From a bacterium (GTDB taxonomy: Bacteria > B130-G9), in contig JAGHCW010000040.1 of assembly GCA_021160245.1 (NCBI GenBank), positions 1 through 38,126 of the forward strand: a stretch of DNA of 38,126 nucleotides. The letters are read 5' to 3'. The translations under genes were made by a program, and so were the position numbers. How positions within the stretch are numbered: the stretch's first letter is position 1; the number at the start of each line of letters is the position of its first letter. Shown here piece after piece: positions 26,374 to 34,514 of the stretch. The notes beneath the pieces were generated by a model that was given only the letters and a program-made list of their open reading frames with translations, had not been told where the DNA came from and did not search any database.

Positions 26374-27180
26374 CTACAAAAACCGAAGCGTCAGTTTTTG
26401 CCCCTTGTCAAAACCAAGCACCTCTTTCGCGCTCGCCTCATTGACGGAGACCTCGAGCTGCGAAGTGCTGCCGAACAACAGAGCGGGGCTTTGCTTGTCG
26501 CATTCCGCGTAGAAGTGCTTAAGCTCCTTGATGACATGGTCGCCGACAGCGAGCTCAAACTGATGATTTTCTGAGGCCTCGAGCATCTCGTCGAATCTCG
26601 CCCGCGTTATGTTCGTAACTAAGTTCCCAAACGAGTCGATGTGGATTATTTGGCCCTCGACCATGCCCTCGTCCTCGTTGACCTCGGGAACAGGCAGCTT
26701 GAGATCAACATAATCATCTATCTTATCGCCAAAACTCTCAACCTCCACTCCCTTGGTCAGCCAGCCAGCCACCGGGGCAAGGATGTCCCGACCGTGAAAT
26801 GTCGATGAGAGAGGCCTTAAGAAGTAATGCTCCGCCTCAATCTGGTGAACGTTGATGTCCTCTGGGTCCTGATAGACCCCAGACAGCACGCCGTTATCCG
26901 GCGCGACGAAGAGATGGCTATTGATCGATGCTAAGAGCATCCGCCTTCCGCTTCCAACAGTTGGATCAACAACCACCACGTGAATCGTCCAGTTTGGGAA
27001 GTAGTGATAGCTGTTCGCGAGGACGAGGCTCGCCTCCATTATGTCGTGGCGCCCGATCTCGTGAGTTATGTCAATTACGGTGACGTCACGGTTTATGTTC
27101 AACATAACGGCTTTCATCACGGCCGCGTAGTTGTCTCTGGTCCCAAAATCTGTCGTGAGCGTTACGATTGGCTGCTTCAT
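26374..27180 (-). CDS. SAM hydrolase (adenosine-forming), DUF62 family
   Basis: This 268-residue protein belongs to the SAM hydroxide adenosyltransferase family, related to fluorinase and chlorinase. It has the N-terminal motif TLTTDFGTRDNYAAVMKAV, an Asp-Arg-His set at D72 and R79 (VVVDPTVGSGRR) and H129 (STFHGRDILAP), and APDNGVLSGV. The C-terminal domain contains HIDSFGNLVTNI. Family members hydrolyse S-adenosylmethionine to adenosine and methionine. The Asp-Arg-His set, at the expected spacing, favours hydrolysis over halogenation. The gene stands alone on the minus strand. Its physiological role, perhaps SAM turnover, is not known from context. Confidence 0.9.
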   Translation of the reverse strand: MKQPIVTLTTDFGTRDNYAAVMKAVMLNINRDVTVIDITHEIGRHDIMEASLVLANSYHYFPNWTIHVVVVDPTVGSGRRMLLASINSHLFVAPDNGVLSGVYQDPEDINVHQIEAEHYFLRPLSSTFHGRDILAPVAGWLTKGVEVESFGDKIDDYVDLKLPVPEVNEDEGMVEGQIIHIDSFGNLVTNITRARFDEMLEASENHQFELAVGDHVIKELKHFYAECDKQSPALLFGSTSQLEVSVNEASAKEVLGFDKGQKLTLRFL

Positions 27181-29584: not shown

Positions 29585-30355
29585 CTACAGGTTTCCGTTC
29601 ACGAACGCCTTTGTTTGGTCGTTTGATGGCGAATCGAAGAGTTTTGGAAGCGGGCCTTCGTCCACCTTCTGGCCATCTACCAGCAACAAACCGCGGTCGC
29701 CGATTCTCTTTGCCTGGTCAACGTCGTGCGTGACGAAGAGCACCGAGAGCCCATGCTCGAAAGTTAGATGCCTAACGTGCTTTTCAATGGCGAGAGTTGC
29801 GCTCGGATCGAGCGATGCGGTCGGCTCGTCCATGAGCAAGACCTCCGGTTGATTTGCGAGCACACGGGCAATCGCGACGCGTTGCTTTTCGCCCTCAGAC
29901 AGCTCCGCGGTCTTGCGTTCAATAAAATCGCCGGATAGGCCGGCCATGCCGAGGCATTCGACAACTTGTCTCTTCTCCTCCTCATAGCTCATGGCGCCAG
30001 TCTCATCTCTATTTAGCCGGGGGCCGAACATTATGTTGTCAAGAACCGTGCCCTCAAAAAGAGCTGGCGTTTGTTGCACTAGACCGACGCGGCGCCTCAG
30101 CTGAGTAACGTCAAGTTCAAGCGTGTCTAGGCTGTCCAAGAAGACTGTGCCTCCAGTCGGAATCAACAGGCGATTGGCTAGTCTTAGCACCGTGCTCTTG
30201 CCGGAACCGGACGGGCCGGCGATTATGAAAACCTCCCTCGGCCCAATGCTGAAGGAGATATTCCTCAATATCGCTCGCTTGCCGCCCTTGAGCTCCTTCT
30301 CGTCAACATCAAGCCATGCAAATGATACAGACTTGAAGCCCAATTTCTCAACCAT
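29585..30355 (-). CDS. ABC transporter ATP-binding protein
   Basis: This 256-residue ABC ATPase has an intact Walker A (GPSGSGKST), Q-loop (VGLVQQTPALFEG), signature (LSEGEKQRVAIAR), Walker B (VLLMDEPTASLD) and H-loop (VLFVTHD). It most resembles the FetA/PstB-like group, by the Q-loop and spacing. No permease gene is next to it, so its partner must be encoded elsewhere. Alternatively it is a non-transport ATPase. It lies 47 bases downstream of the ATP-grasp/FMN fusion gene on the same strand and is probably co-transcribed. The ribosome-binding site is weak (AAGG). Confidence 0.9.
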   Translation of the reverse strand: MVEKLGFKSVSFAWLDVDEKELKGGKRAILRNISFSIGPREVFIIAGPSGSGKSTVLRLANRLLIPTGGTVFLDSLDTLELDVTQLRRRVGLVQQTPALFEGTVLDNIMFGPRLNRDETGAMSYEEEKRQVVECLGMAGLSGDFIERKTAELSEGEKQRVAIARVLANQPEVLLMDEPTASLDPSATLAIEKHVRHLTFEHGLSVLFVTHDVDQAKRIGDRGLLLVDGQKVDEGPLPKLFDSPSNDQTKAFVNGNL

Positions 30356-30402: not shown

Positions 30403-32637
30403 TCAGACCTGAACAACAACATCCGGCGTGATGTCATCGAGGGACTCGCATCCCGTAAGAACCATCGAACTCTCAAGCTCCTCCCTCAGACTGTTGATAT
30501 AGTACTCGACGCCGTCAATGCCGCCCCCAAAAGCCGCAATCGCCATCGGCCTCCCTATAAGCACCGCCTCAGCCCCCAGCGCCAGGCATTTCAGAACATC
30601 CGCTCCTGAGCGGACGCCACCATCTACTAGAATCTTCGCTCTTCTTCGGACAACAGAGACGATCTTCGGTAGAACGTCAAGTGCTCCCGGCATGTTGTCC
30701 AGCACTCTTCCGCCATGATTCGAGACAACAATCGCTCTAGCGCCCGCCTCAACGGCTGCCACAGCGTCCCAAACCGTCATTATGCCCTTAACGACGAACG
30801 GCAATCTCGTCATGGCAATGATCTCCCGCAGCTGCTCGGCGGATTTCGACTCGACCGGTTGCTGCATCATGTCCATCGTCAAGAACCTCGCGCCATCGAC
30901 ATCCATTCCAACCGCGAGGCATCCCGCCTTCTCTGAGGCCTTAATTCGCTCCAAGATAGCGTCTCGGCTGACGCGCGGCTTGAAGATCGGAATACCACAG
31001 CCACCACACTCCGCAATCGCGCCCAGACCAGCATGATACATTGTCGGCAAAGCGCCATCGCCAACCAAGCAAACCGTCCCGGCGTGCTTGCAGCCGGTTA
31101 CTATAAGTCTCGCGTATTCTTCTTCGGTAACCGCGCCGCCCATATTCAAATTCGTCCCGGTCATTGGCGCTGCCAAGATGGGGCAGCTGAGCGTTAAGTT
31201 GAAGAGATCATAGGACGTGTCCGGCTTCCGCACGCCGTGAATCGAGCGAACGTTGATCTTGTATTTATTAAGCGACTTGATGTTTGCCACGAACGAGGCG
31301 CCGGTGCCGACTGCGCCCATGCCGGGCACTGAAGTCGGGCAATCTCGGCCATCGCAGACTTCACAGGCTCGACAGGCAAGACCCATGAGCCGACGCGCGT
31401 TGTCACGCAGAATCTTGTGGGTTAGCTTCACCTGCTTACCGATCTCTATGTTGATCAGGTTCTGGGCGGCCTTGTTCACGGCTATCGCCTCGTCCCGGGT
31501 GTCGGCAACGGTTATGATGTTTATGGGTTTATCGAGATTGCAGGTCGGTGCATGGACATAATCGCCGGGGCTGACATTGACGACAACTTCCACTACTCCG
31601 GGTATCGATTGCGCGGCGTTCACGCCCTCTATCTTTCTTATCTGTCCAGGCAATGAGAAGACAGCGCGTTCGGCTGAAACTCGTCTGTACTTCGGCTCCA
31701 CACCCGTGGGCTCAACGCCGAGCGCTATCTCTATCGCTCCCTTGATGCTACTTATGCCAGTTGAGAGCGGATATGTATGGCTCGACATGAAGCCACCGGA
31801 GAGCCGGGCCGCTATCTCGCCGATCATGGCGCCCTTGGAAGTTAGCTTGATGTCCCCCTTGGCTGCTCCAATCGTCAGACCGAGCGCCCTAATGCCCCGA
31901 AGCATCACCTCGCAAGCGTCATCGATCTGCTCCTTCGGGAGAATGCTGGGCATCGTATGACCGATCTCAACGAAGTACGGGGGAAAACCTATGATCCGAT
32001 CAGCTATCCCAACGAGGCGGACTTCACCTTTCCAAACCAGGGCATCTATAGAGAGCTCCGGGCCGTCCATGAAATCCTCTATGATAAGCTCCCCTGAAGG
32101 GGAGGCCTCCTTCGCTCGGTGGAACGCCTCGGGGATATCGTCCTTTGAGTCAACGCGCATTACGCCGCGCGCCCCCATGTTATCCGAGGGTTTCACTACA
32201 AGTGGGAAGCTGTCCAGATCGTCCGTTGCCCGGAATGCCTCCTGCAAGGTCCAAACCCCCCGAAAGCTGGGTGATGGCACGTTGTGCTCCTGAAACCGCC
32301 GACGCATTTTTATCTTGTTCGTTGCAGCTTCTGCATTCTCAAACTTGTTCCCGGGCAGTCCTAGAGCATTCGCCACCGCTGAAACCGTCATCGAGGCGTC
32401 CGTCCCTGCGGTAATAACGCCGTCGATTTTCCGATGCATCGCGTAGCTTCTGGCAACTCGAACCGTTCCCTCGATATCCCGTGTGCTGACAATAACAGGG
32501 ATATCTGCATAGCGCATCCCGACCGCCTTCGAGTTCATGTCCGTCACCATGGTGATCAGACCCATGTCCTTCGCTATCCGAATGGCCGGCAGCTGGAGGA
32601 AGCCTGCTCCAATTATCATTATCGTCTTGGGACTCAT
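30403..32637 (-). CDS. ATP-grasp ligase fused to an FMN-dependent alpha-hydroxy-acid dehydrogenase
   Basis: This 744-residue protein joins two enzymes. Residues about 1-310 are an ATP-grasp ligase: IMIIGAGFLQLPAIRIAKDMG, the ATP-binding loop VVKPSDNMGARGV and the metal-binding GEIAARLSGGF with E274. A C-terminal lobe to about 405 follows. Residues about 410-744 are a lactate/glycolate-oxidase-type TIM barrel: PILAAPMTGTNLNMGG, VVKGIMTVWDA with the conserved Lys, SNHGGRVLD with catalytic His641 and Arg644, and VDGGVRSGADV. The junction holds a CX2CX2CX4C motif (C422, C425, C428, C433) followed by GTGASF, as I recall from stand-alone clostridial homologues of the second half. It could bind an iron-sulfur cluster or zinc. 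An amide- or peptide-forming step coupled to oxidation or reduction is an inference. It probably shares an operon with the upstream aminotransferase. Confidence 0.88.
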   Translation of the reverse strand: MSPKTIMIIGAGFLQLPAIRIAKDMGLITMVTDMNSKAVGMRYADIPVIVSTRDIEGTVRVARSYAMHRKIDGVITAGTDASMTVSAVANALGLPGNKFENAEAATNKIKMRRRFQEHNVPSPSFRGVWTLQEAFRATDDLDSFPLVVKPSDNMGARGVMRVDSKDDIPEAFHRAKEASPSGELIIEDFMDGPELSIDALVWKGEVRLVGIADRIIGFPPYFVEIGHTMPSILPKEQIDDACEVMLRGIRALGLTIGAAKGDIKLTSKGAMIGEIAARLSGGFMSSHTYPLSTGISSIKGAIEIALGVEPTGVEPKYRRVSAERAVFSLPGQIRKIEGVNAAQSIPGVVEVVVNVSPGDYVHAPTCNLDKPINIITVADTRDEAIAVNKAAQNLINIEIGKQVKLTHKILRDNARRLMGLACRACEVCDGRDCPTSVPGMGAVGTGASFVANIKSLNKYKINVRSIHGVRKPDTSYDLFNLTLSCPILAAPMTGTNLNMGGAVTEEEYARLIVTGCKHAGTVCLVGDGALPTMYHAGLGAIAECGGCGIPIFKPRVSRDAILERIKASEKAGCLAVGMDVDGARFLTMDMMQQPVESKSAEQLREIIAMTRLPFVVKGIMTVWDAVAAVEAGARAIVVSNHGGRVLDNMPGALDVLPKIVSVVRRRAKILVDGGVRSGADVLKCLALGAEAVLIGRPMAIAAFGGGIDGVEYYINSLREELESSMVLTGCESLDDITPDVVVQV

Positions 32638-32712
32638 TCTCTCACTCCCTTACATCATTTCTGCATAGTTCATTCAGATGATGATCGAATGCATCAATCC
32701 AGTGCTCTTGCC

Positions 32713-33864
32713 TTATTGCAGTCTCTCGACGGCCTCGCGGACTCTTTGCGTGGGCAGTGTCAGCGAAAACCGGACATAGCCATCGCCATGCTCACCAAAA
32801 ACAGTCCCGGGCGTTGCAAGAATCCCAAAGCGATCGAGCAATTGCTCAGAATATTCAGCAGCACGAACTCCGCCGGGAAGCCCAGCCCATATATAGAACG
32901 TCGCGCGAGGGATGCTCGCAGAAAGACCAAGAGCCCGAAGCGCCGGAACCAGAAGCTCCGCCCGCTCCCGATAAATCCCATTCGCTCCTGACGTGAACGA
33001 GCCGCAGCTTCGCATCGCCTCAATCGCTGCAATCTGAATCGGAACGAAAACGCCAGAATCAAGATTGTTCTTCATACTTCCCAGCGCCTCAATCAAGCCG
33101 CTATCGCCCGCCGCGAATCCCACGCGCCAGCCCGTCATGTTGAACGTCTTCGAGAGCGAAAAGAACTCGATAAGATTCCGCCTGTCGCCGCTGGATGCAA
33201 GCAGGCACGGCTGAGATGAGCCGTCAAGAATGGTCTCAATGTAAGCCGCGTCGTGGCAGAGCGCGATGTCGTGCTCCCGCGCAAACTGCGAGGCTAAAGT
33301 AAGGAACTCCGCTGACGCGCAGGCCCCGGTTGGATTGTTCGGGTAGTTCAGAAACATCAGCTTTGCGCGCTTGGCGATGGCCTCGTCGATCGAAGACAGG
33401 TCAGGTAAAAAGCCCCGGTCGGGAATTAGTGGCAAGGGCGCCGGCTCTCCTCCGGAAATGACTGCCGCCGAGTGATAGACGGGGTACGCTGGATTCGGGC
33501 AGAGCACTACGTCTCCCGGACTGACGACGCCGAGAGCTAGATGAACAAGGCCCTCTTTTGAGCCGATAAGCGCTATGACCTCCTTGTCTGGGTCAACGTT
33601 CACGCCAAATCTCCTAGCCAGCCAATCGGCACAAGCCTTTCGAAAGTCCGCCGTTCCGCGATAGGGGGGGTATTGGTGGTGTTTGCCGTTCTTCGCCGCC
33701 TCGCAGAGAGCTTGAACCACATCCGGCGGACTGGGCAGATCAGGATCGCCGACACCAAAATCGATGACATCAACTCCTGACGCCAGAGCATCGGCTTTCT
33801 TTGCGTCAAGACGCGCAAAAGGATACGAAGGAAGCAGGTCAAGACGATTGGCAAGATAGCGCAA
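32713..33864 (-). CDS. DapL-like class I aminotransferase
   Basis: This 383-residue PLP enzyme has the layout of LL-diaminopimelate aminotransferase and close relatives: RLDLLPSYPFARLDAKKADA at the N-terminus, GVGDPDLPSP, NPAYPVY, NYPNNPTGA and the PLP-lysine motif SLSKTFNMTGWRVGF. The start TTG 33864 (GGAG 9 bases upstream) gives the family N-terminus RYLANRLDLLPSYPF. TTG 33903 would add 13 residues. In DapL it would make LL-diaminopimelate from tetrahydrodipicolinate for lysine and cell wall. Subfamily members also act on other amino acids. The next gene, 75 bases downstream, is the ATP-grasp/FMN fusion, so it may supply that enzyme's substrate. The specific substrate is not certain. Confidence 0.85.
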   Translation of the reverse strand: MRYLANRLDLLPSYPFARLDAKKADALASGVDVIDFGVGDPDLPSPPDVVQALCEAAKNGKHHQYPPYRGTADFRKACADWLARRFGVNVDPDKEVIALIGSKEGLVHLALGVVSPGDVVLCPNPAYPVYHSAAVISGGEPAPLPLIPDRGFLPDLSSIDEAIAKRAKLMFLNYPNNPTGACASAEFLTLASQFAREHDIALCHDAAYIETILDGSSQPCLLASSGDRRNLIEFFSLSKTFNMTGWRVGFAAGDSGLIEALGSMKNNLDSGVFVPIQIAAIEAMRSCGSFTSGANGIYRERAELLVPALRALGLSASIPRATFYIWAGLPGGVRAAEYSEQLLDRFGILATPGTVFGEHGDGYVRFSLTLPTQRVREAVERLQ

Positions 33865-34514
33865 GAGAAGCGACTCCAGAAAACGTTGGTGACTGAAAGC
33901 CAAACAAGCGCTACTAAGCTAGCTGAGTCGCCCGCTAATGTCAAGAAGCGGAGGCTGGAGGATTCTCTTGATTTTGTGTCGCATAGTATGTGCACAAACT
34001 ATCTTGTGTCTCACATTCTTGGAAATCCGGCACACAAATCGTCTTGTCGCCCAAAAGTGGTACACAAAGTCGGAAGTGTTCTTGGTCTTATTGGGTGATG
34101 GTTGGGTTATTGGCTCCCTGAAGGGGAGCTACTACGGTAGCCGTGGGTGGCAACCCACGGAATCGGTTCAATATGCGCCGCATTCTAGACCGTGAAGGGC
34201 TTGTGCATAAAAGCGGCGCGACGCCGGGTCGAACATTTCCCGCAGCGACTCTTTGTTCCAAATCCGCTGGGCCCCAGCTTGCTCTGACTGCTTTGATCCG
34301 TGGGTGGTACCCACGGCTATTGCTGTGAATCCTCTTTGGGGATGTAGAGCACCGTCGGTGAACTCATACGTGGGAGCTCACACGATCATCCTGGTGGGCC
34401 TCATCAGTTGCGGCTCCATCAAATGAATACGAATGCTCCTCACACACATTAAGGTGCTTTCGCATAGCCACAAGTCCTGCTATATTCTGCCTTTTAGTAC
34501 TTAGGGAGAACTCA
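33865..34514. other. 650-base divergent intergenic region with repeats
   Basis: The region separates the minus-strand aminotransferase from the plus-strand sulfatase-like gene and must hold both promoters. It contains three degenerate ACACAAA-type repeats (33992-34070) and a hairpin-bounded element (34113-34319). A good -10 hexamer, TATATT (34481-34486), lies 28 bases before the sulfatase start, without a clear -35. I found no gene in it. Confidence 0.6.
34113..34319. repeat. MITE/REP-like element bounded by inverted hairpins
   Basis: A hairpin of GCTCCC (34113-34118) with GGGAGC (34124-34129) is followed by CCGTGGGT (34141-34148) with ACCCACGG (34153-34160). The same CCGTGGGT/ACCCACGG palindrome recurs at 34298-34316. 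With flanks the two ends read TAGCCGTGGGT outward from each side, so they form terminal inverted repeats of an element of about 182 bases (34138-34319). Inside, GCGCCGC (34175-34181) pairs with GCGGCGC (34213-34219). There is no coding capacity for a transposase. Confidence 0.6.

Follow-up and report, generated by a model that had tools for sequence, protein, structure and literature searches.

The window analysed here, a 38,126-nt stretch of the bacterial contig JAGHCW010000040.1, contains a reading frame in which an ATP-grasp ligase runs directly into an FMN-dependent alpha-hydroxy-acid dehydrogenase. This arrangement raises the question of whether the two enzymes truly form one protein and, if so, which pathway would employ them together. 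The fusion proves to be real and widespread. For its function we favor, with a confidence that stops a little short of even, a bifunctional enzyme of flagellar nonulosonic-acid (sialic-acid-like sugar) glycosylation.

One protein with a ligase half and an FMN half

The frame lies on the minus strand, where it runs from 32637 to 30403 with an ATG start and no internal stop codon, and the plus strand of this interval is riddled with stops. The gene and its parts are as follows.

30403..32637, minus strand: whole fusion gene, 744 aa, stop included; the only long ORF there
32645..32649, minus strand: Shine-Dalgarno-like GGGAG, 7 nt 5' of the fusion ATG, read from the sequence
31435..32637, minus strand: N half, residues 1–401, L-amino-acid-ligase-type ATP-grasp (Pfam and structural superposition); kept in all lineages
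31816..31818, minus strand: codon of E274, the invariant acidic residue of the ATP-grasp site (GE-x-x-x-R278)
31441..31650, minus strand: LAL_C2 domain, residues 330–399 (Pfam)
30406..31431, minus strand: C half, residues 403–744, FMN-dependent alpha-hydroxy-acid dehydrogenase-type TIM barrel (Pfam and structural superposition)
31339..31374, minus strand: CX2CX2CX4C (C422, C425, C428, C433), at the start of the FMN unit
30706..30717, minus strand: H641-G-G-R644, catalytic His/Arg motif of the FMN family

An intact fusion ORF is also found in all three of the other genomes of the window's family (75–76% identity), and three distant genomes carry the fusion at 45–49% identity to the window protein. 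Both halves are under purifying selection, with a dN/dS of ~0.08 each in a comparison within the window's family for which dS is measurable (L003 vs. L004). Because the ORF is intact in the three family genomes and both halves are selected, chance, a frameshift or an assembly artefact is excluded as the origin of the fusion, and neither a stop nor a frameshift separates the halves in the window or in these relatives. A scan of GTDB representatives recovered at least 80 fusion loci, every one a single ORF of ~710–810 residues, with hosts among the matches listed that include Spirochaetota, Nitrospinota, Hydrogenedentota, Coatesbacteria, Lindowbacteria and some unplaced bacteria. Within Spirochaetota, 167 of the 179 genomes in an even sample match, mostly at full length. 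Single-ORF copies across phyla clearly favor a real fusion over a set of homologues in which the halves never occur together. The fusion is real and old, and it is not local to the window's family.

Pfam assigns ATP-grasp_4 (48.7 bits, cut-off 27), LAL_C2 (60.8 bits, cut-off 29.4) and FMN_dh (PF01070; 226.7 bits, cut-off 24.9) to the protein. An AlphaFold model built from 82 relatives (mean pLDDT 91.6) likewise has two complete domains with high confidence within each half; with a pTM of only 0.59, it does not fix the packing of the halves or the mutual placement of their active sites. Residues 1–401 superpose on the L-amino-acid ligase BL00235 (3vot; Z 41.0, 383 residues, rmsd 2.5 Å), while residues 403–744 superpose on human glycolate oxidase (Z ~39, 317–320 residues, rmsd 2.2–2.4 Å) and on mandelate oxidase (Z ~39). 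The initial annotation had read one frame as a complete ATP-grasp enzyme plus a complete FMN dehydrogenase, and this holds for the 744-aa ORF, on which Pfam and the model agree. The catalytic residues that it named, E274, H641 and R644, sit at exactly these positions. The ATP/Mg residues K149, E187, D262, E274 and R278 are invariant in all 82 fusions, and the window protein keeps the catalytic His and Arg of the FMN family (NHGGR); R644 is present in 82/82 relatives and H641 in 73/82. In a profile alignment, the stretch after D581 could not be matched to the family's substrate-arginine segment. We take the residues of glycolate oxidase that bind the substrate carboxylate to be R164, Y24 and Y129. 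As the FMN substrate pocket differs from that of glycolate oxidase, a classical 2-hydroxy-acid substrate is not assured.

The CX2CX2CX4C motif had been described as lying exactly at the junction. It is present at residues 422–433, but it is not a junction feature: all four cysteines are invariant in 82/82 fusions and also in three unfused FMN relatives, which rules out a fusion-specific junction motif. Since the unfused relatives share the cysteines and the motif disappears where the FMN half decays, the four residues serve the FMN unit itself. The site may hold an Fe–S cluster or Zn, the latter being compatible with the spacing as well. A second, unfused FMN enzyme of the subfamily, with the altered Cys motif CGVYKECDG, was observed directly beside large and small glutamate-synthase-like genes (L176:6691-7737).

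Flanking genes and genome-wide associations

Two genes flank the fusion in the window.

32713..33903, minus strand: class I/II aminotransferase, DapL-like, upstream of the fusion; a neighbor in the family only
29585..30355, minus strand: orphan ABC ATPase, downstream of the fusion; neighbor not conserved

The initial annotation described both genes correctly, but the aminotransferase falls below the DapL cut-offs (497.0 vs. 593.25 for TIGR03540; 499.7 vs. 507 for PRK09276). Its further claim, that the two genes share the pathway of the fusion, does not stand, as neither travels with the gene outside the family. Among the loci listed, the aminotransferase (cluster c30) adjoins the fusion in genomes of the same family and in no other locus, and the ABC gene is not beside the fusion in genome G001 either. 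With adjacency not kept beyond the window's family, both are ruled out as partners, and the aminotransferase is probably not part of the fusion's system.

Other features of the window were noted in passing. A perfect palindrome, CCGTGGGTGGCAACCCACGG, lies at 34141-34160 between the aminotransferase and a sulfatase-like gene, with a near copy, CCGTGGGTGGTACCCACGG, seen by eye at ~34300; the pair looks like a REP-type repeat. A protein of the SAM hydroxide adenosyltransferase/(R)-SAM hydrolase family (PF01887, 173.5 bits) is encoded at 26374-27180 on the minus strand, and a secreted protein truncated by the end of the contig, with numerous nearly identical ~90-residue repeats, occupies positions 1-2964 of the plus strand.

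At the genome level, flagellin (PF00669), NeuB (PF03102) and a Maf/MptE-like protein (PF01973) each score over the cut-off in 50 of 50 fusion genomes, with NeuB strong in 49. Among the fusion-free controls of our sample of relatives, flagellin is found in 22/53, strong NeuB in 16/53 and both in ~10/53. Flagellin and strong NeuB together thus mark 49/50 carriers vs. ~10/53 controls (Fisher p 6e-18, with relatedness ignored). When 14 named control genomes were searched for the Maf/MptE-like protein, four archaea were positive, and E. coli, B. subtilis, Caulobacter and Thermotoga were negative. In Spirochaetota, NeuB is present in all 47 carriers checked and absent from 8 of the 12 genomes without the fusion gene (p 2e-7), although these counts are not independent, as the gene occurs in nearly the whole phylum. 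The eight genomes lacking both genes are all 1.0–1.8 Mb in size, and one carrier genome of 1.14 Mb retains the fusion gene plus NeuB. Four draft spirochaete genomes are NeuB-positive with no fusion match, perhaps through assembly gaps; three of the four contain the lyase described below, which would fit a fusion that is absent from the assembly and not from the genome. The NeuB gene is close to flagellin or fliS-like genes in several genomes, and in the window's family it lies apart from both the fusion and flagellin.

These distributions bear on a general amino-acid or hydroxy-acid amide (dipeptide-like) synthetase, unconnected with flagella, whose FMN half would oxidize a 2-hydroxy acid to feed the ligase. 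Such an enzyme would agree with the closest solved fold being the L-amino-acid ligase BL00235, with a locus that is mostly a single gene and with the aminotransferase upstream in the window's family. We nevertheless think it unlikely, as it leaves unpredicted both the 50/50 co-occurrence with Maf, NeuB and flagellin and the joint absence with NeuB from small spirochaete genomes.

Among the loci listed, the commonest neighbor of the fusion is an HpcH/HpaI-like lyase of ~263 residues, which is directly adjacent in 23 of 83 loci, including those of Nitrospinota, Lindowbacteria, Hydrogenedentota and others. Genes of CMP-nonulosonate synthesis or flagellin glycosylation share an operon with the fusion in L022, L033, L082 and L105. 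The gene order is spsF, spsG, lyase, fusion, Maf/MptE-like in L033; spsG, lyase, fusion, MptE/Maf-like in L105; and fused spsF/spsG, lyase, fusion in L022. In L082, the fusion is followed by an MptE/Maf-like gene, and the lyase of the same genome sits with spsG and spsF elsewhere (L141). In Bacillus, legionaminic acid is made by a pathway that includes SpsF and SpsG (PMC7439481). Operons of this kind are found neither in the window nor in most spirochaetes, in the majority of which the fusion gene stands alone, and the operon evidence comes from a few lineages. The analysis of fusions and co-occurrence that had been proposed as a check thus finds same-order fusions to be widespread, but the real associates are the lyase, NeuB, Maf and flagellin rather than the aminotransferase and the ABC ATPase.

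Decoration of capsule or LPS, in which the ligase would place an amino or hydroxy acid on a surface-glycan amino sugar and the flagellin link would arise merely because carriers are flagellated, also deserves consideration. Unfused relatives of the N half are located in capsule loci, and NeuB-type sugars occur in LPS as well. We judge this improbable, however, given that every carrier tested has a Maf/MptE-like gene, which adjoins the fusion in L033, L082 and L105, and that the carrier genome of 1.14 Mb keeps the fusion along with NeuB.

Variation of the FMN half and its relation to the lyase

Across the fusions, the ligase half is the constant and the redox half is optional. In nine spirochaetes among the 82 fusions, H641 is replaced by Arg or Lys. 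The N halves of these sequences have a likeness to the window protein of 0.56–0.58 vs. a mean of 0.56, and their C halves one of 0.31–0.44 vs. 0.51. Brachyspira-like C halves are without the Cys, NHGGR, DGG and GRP motifs, and in Treponema-like sequences the C half is replaced by ~150 unrelated residues. In a tree of N halves, the His-less and decayed forms group together (support 85/79) and the forms without an FMN half make up a separate clade (100/99), so degeneration of the FMN half happened on at least two occasions. This stepwise loss in two lineages provides natural variants for working out the job of each half, and the fusion in turn shows which redox partner belongs with the ligase. 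Individual examples are the Brachyspira-like fusions at L174:5821-8031 and L175:4309-6519, which retain a pseudo-enzyme FMN domain within a 736-aa protein, and the Treponema-like sequence at L170:5685-7361 (G230), which lies immediately after a NIF3-like gene and carries, C-terminal to its ATP-grasp half, an extension of ~150 residues that does not resemble FMN_dh.

The same losses could be taken to mean that the FMN half is mainly a structural or regulatory scaffold and that the ligase is the sole enzyme that matters: the catalytic His is gone in 9/82, the FMN motifs are gone in Brachyspira-like genomes, and Treponema-like genomes keep the N half with the whole FMN half missing. In most lineages, however, the FMN-site residues and the four cysteines do not vary, and FMN relatives also occur unfused as stand-alone proteins, which makes a scaffold quite improbable.

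The lyase tracks the FMN half, with 36 of 65 full-length carriers having it vs. 5 of 42 carriers that are apparently ATP-grasp-only or decayed (p 5e-6), these 42 having been called from score and matched range and the sequence read for part of them. Overall, it is present in 28/50 fusion carriers, and in a 60-genome sample it occurs in exactly the three non-family carriers and in 0/53 others (p 0.001). The T. denticola-like genomes that were read yielded no lyase, nor did Brachyspira-like genomes or the window's own family. As it is missing from this family and from about half of the carriers, it is ruled out as an obligatory partner. In Nitrospinota, the order fusion, HpcH-like lyase, aclB-like, aclA-like (L046, L049, L053, L056, L058, L063, L066 and similar loci) would suit a role in central carbon metabolism linked with ATP-citrate lyase and a CitE-like lyase, such as the handling of a 2-hydroxy or 2-oxo acid within the reverse TCA cycle, but this is very improbable, as acl-like genes adjoin the fusion almost only in Nitrospinota-type loci among those listed and other carriers have none.

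Proposed role and comparison with known systems

We return to flagellar nonulosonic-acid glycosylation as the preferred reading. The link to nonulosonate and flagellin genes is supported by distribution and gene order; the substrates, the direction of the reaction and the order of steps are those that we infer. In the proposed scheme, the HpcH/HpaI-like lyase (in many genomes) or another C–C enzyme would make or cut an acid chain to give a 2-oxo acid. Next, the 2-oxo and 2-hydroxy acids would be interconverted by the FMN half, whose four cysteines probably bind a metal or Fe–S centre, with electrons passing via FMN and perhaps the Cys centre. As its fold, its active-site residues and its genetic associations suggest, the ATP-grasp half would activate the carboxylic acid as an acyl phosphate and join it as an amide to the amine of a nonulosonic acid or its precursor. 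An SpsF-type enzyme would then supply the CMP activation and Maf the transfer to flagellin, as in the known pathway. In Treponema-like and Brachyspira-like spirochaetes, the ligase would work without the FMN half on a donor acid for which the redox step is unnecessary. Of the pathway first suggested for this locus, ligase and redox chemistry in one chain survives, an amide-type product is likely and the pathway is unrecognized in the literature searched, but the partners were wrong.

A more specific version, which is speculative and on the whole somewhat unlikely, is that this near-universal spirochaete enzyme builds and attaches the acyl group of a flagellar nonulosonic acid, in that the lyase would make a 2-oxo-3-deoxy acid, the FMN (possibly Fe–S) module would set C2 and the ATP-grasp half would amidate the sugar. 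The flagellar glycan of T. denticola reportedly bears a 2-methoxy-4,5,6-trihydroxy-hexanoyl amide, that is, a C2-reduced, methylated 3-deoxyhexonate of just the kind that this scheme calls for; in that lineage, the ligase half is kept and the FMN half and the lyase are both absent. To our knowledge, no enzymes that make the special side groups of spirochaete flagellin glycans are known, and a single gene that is in almost every spirochaete and tracks NeuB even at 1.14 Mb makes a direct candidate that would be easy to test. The flagellins of T. denticola carry a 450.2 Da glycan that is essential for filament assembly (PMC9481697). A point against the proposed role is that one study reported no identifiable nonulosonic acid in Leptospira biflexa (PMC3438082), although FlaB1 of this species seems to be glycosylated (PMC13144727). 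Leptospira flagellin glycans also appear to keep the sheath attached to the core (PMC13144727).

The ATP-grasp/FMN fusion was not found in the literature searched. As far as that literature could be searched, the families are known, and their combination, their phylum-wide spread and the link to flagellar glycosylation are unreported. Among single-domain systems, the N half resembles BL00235 (3vot) and BacD over the whole fold of residues 1–401, with both ATP-grasp and LAL_C2 domains, but these are dipeptide ligases without an FMN domain, at ~25% identity. The C half shares its fold, the Lys/His/Arg residues and the FMN-phosphate motifs with glycolate, mandelate and lactate oxidases, from which it differs in the N-terminal four-Cys motif that replaces the usual segment and in the unaligned pocket after D581. 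Closer to it are unfused clostridial proteins annotated as "alpha-hydroxy-acid oxidizing protein" (such as WP_212821939.1, L109), which belong to the same FMN subfamily, have the four cysteines at 41–46% identity, and lack the ATP-grasp half.

The nearest parallel in pathway is the Shewanella oneidensis sfmABCDE cluster (NeuB-like, TPP enzyme, reductase, methyltransferase and ATP-grasp), which is needed for normal flagellin modification (PMC3765264). Shewanella flagellin carries mono-N-acetyl pseudaminic acid and a nitrogen-free, O-methylated moiety of 236–264 Da, and deletion of sfmE, the ATP-grasp gene, reduces spreading but does not abolish flagella (PMC3765264). As proposed for the fusion, SfmE (SO_3265) is an ATP-grasp protein that acts in a flagellin nonulosonate pathway, one that includes a NeuB-like gene and has a Maf gene close by. 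SfmE differs in being a 412-aa single domain with no FMN partner, a comparison made at the level of description. In locus L111, an unfused relative of the N half is clustered with NeuB, a TPP enzyme, FabG, a methyltransferase and pse genes. This cluster matches sfmABCDE in make-up, and its ATP-grasp is 34% identical to the N half of the fusion. Because of the sfm precedent and this cluster, a carboxylate–amine ligase for a nonulosonate side group would be the most economical role for the N half. The two systems share the logic of a C–C enzyme, a redox enzyme and a ligase, which in sfm are the TPP enzyme, the reductase and the ATP-grasp and here are the HpcH-like lyase, the FMN enzyme and the ATP-grasp.
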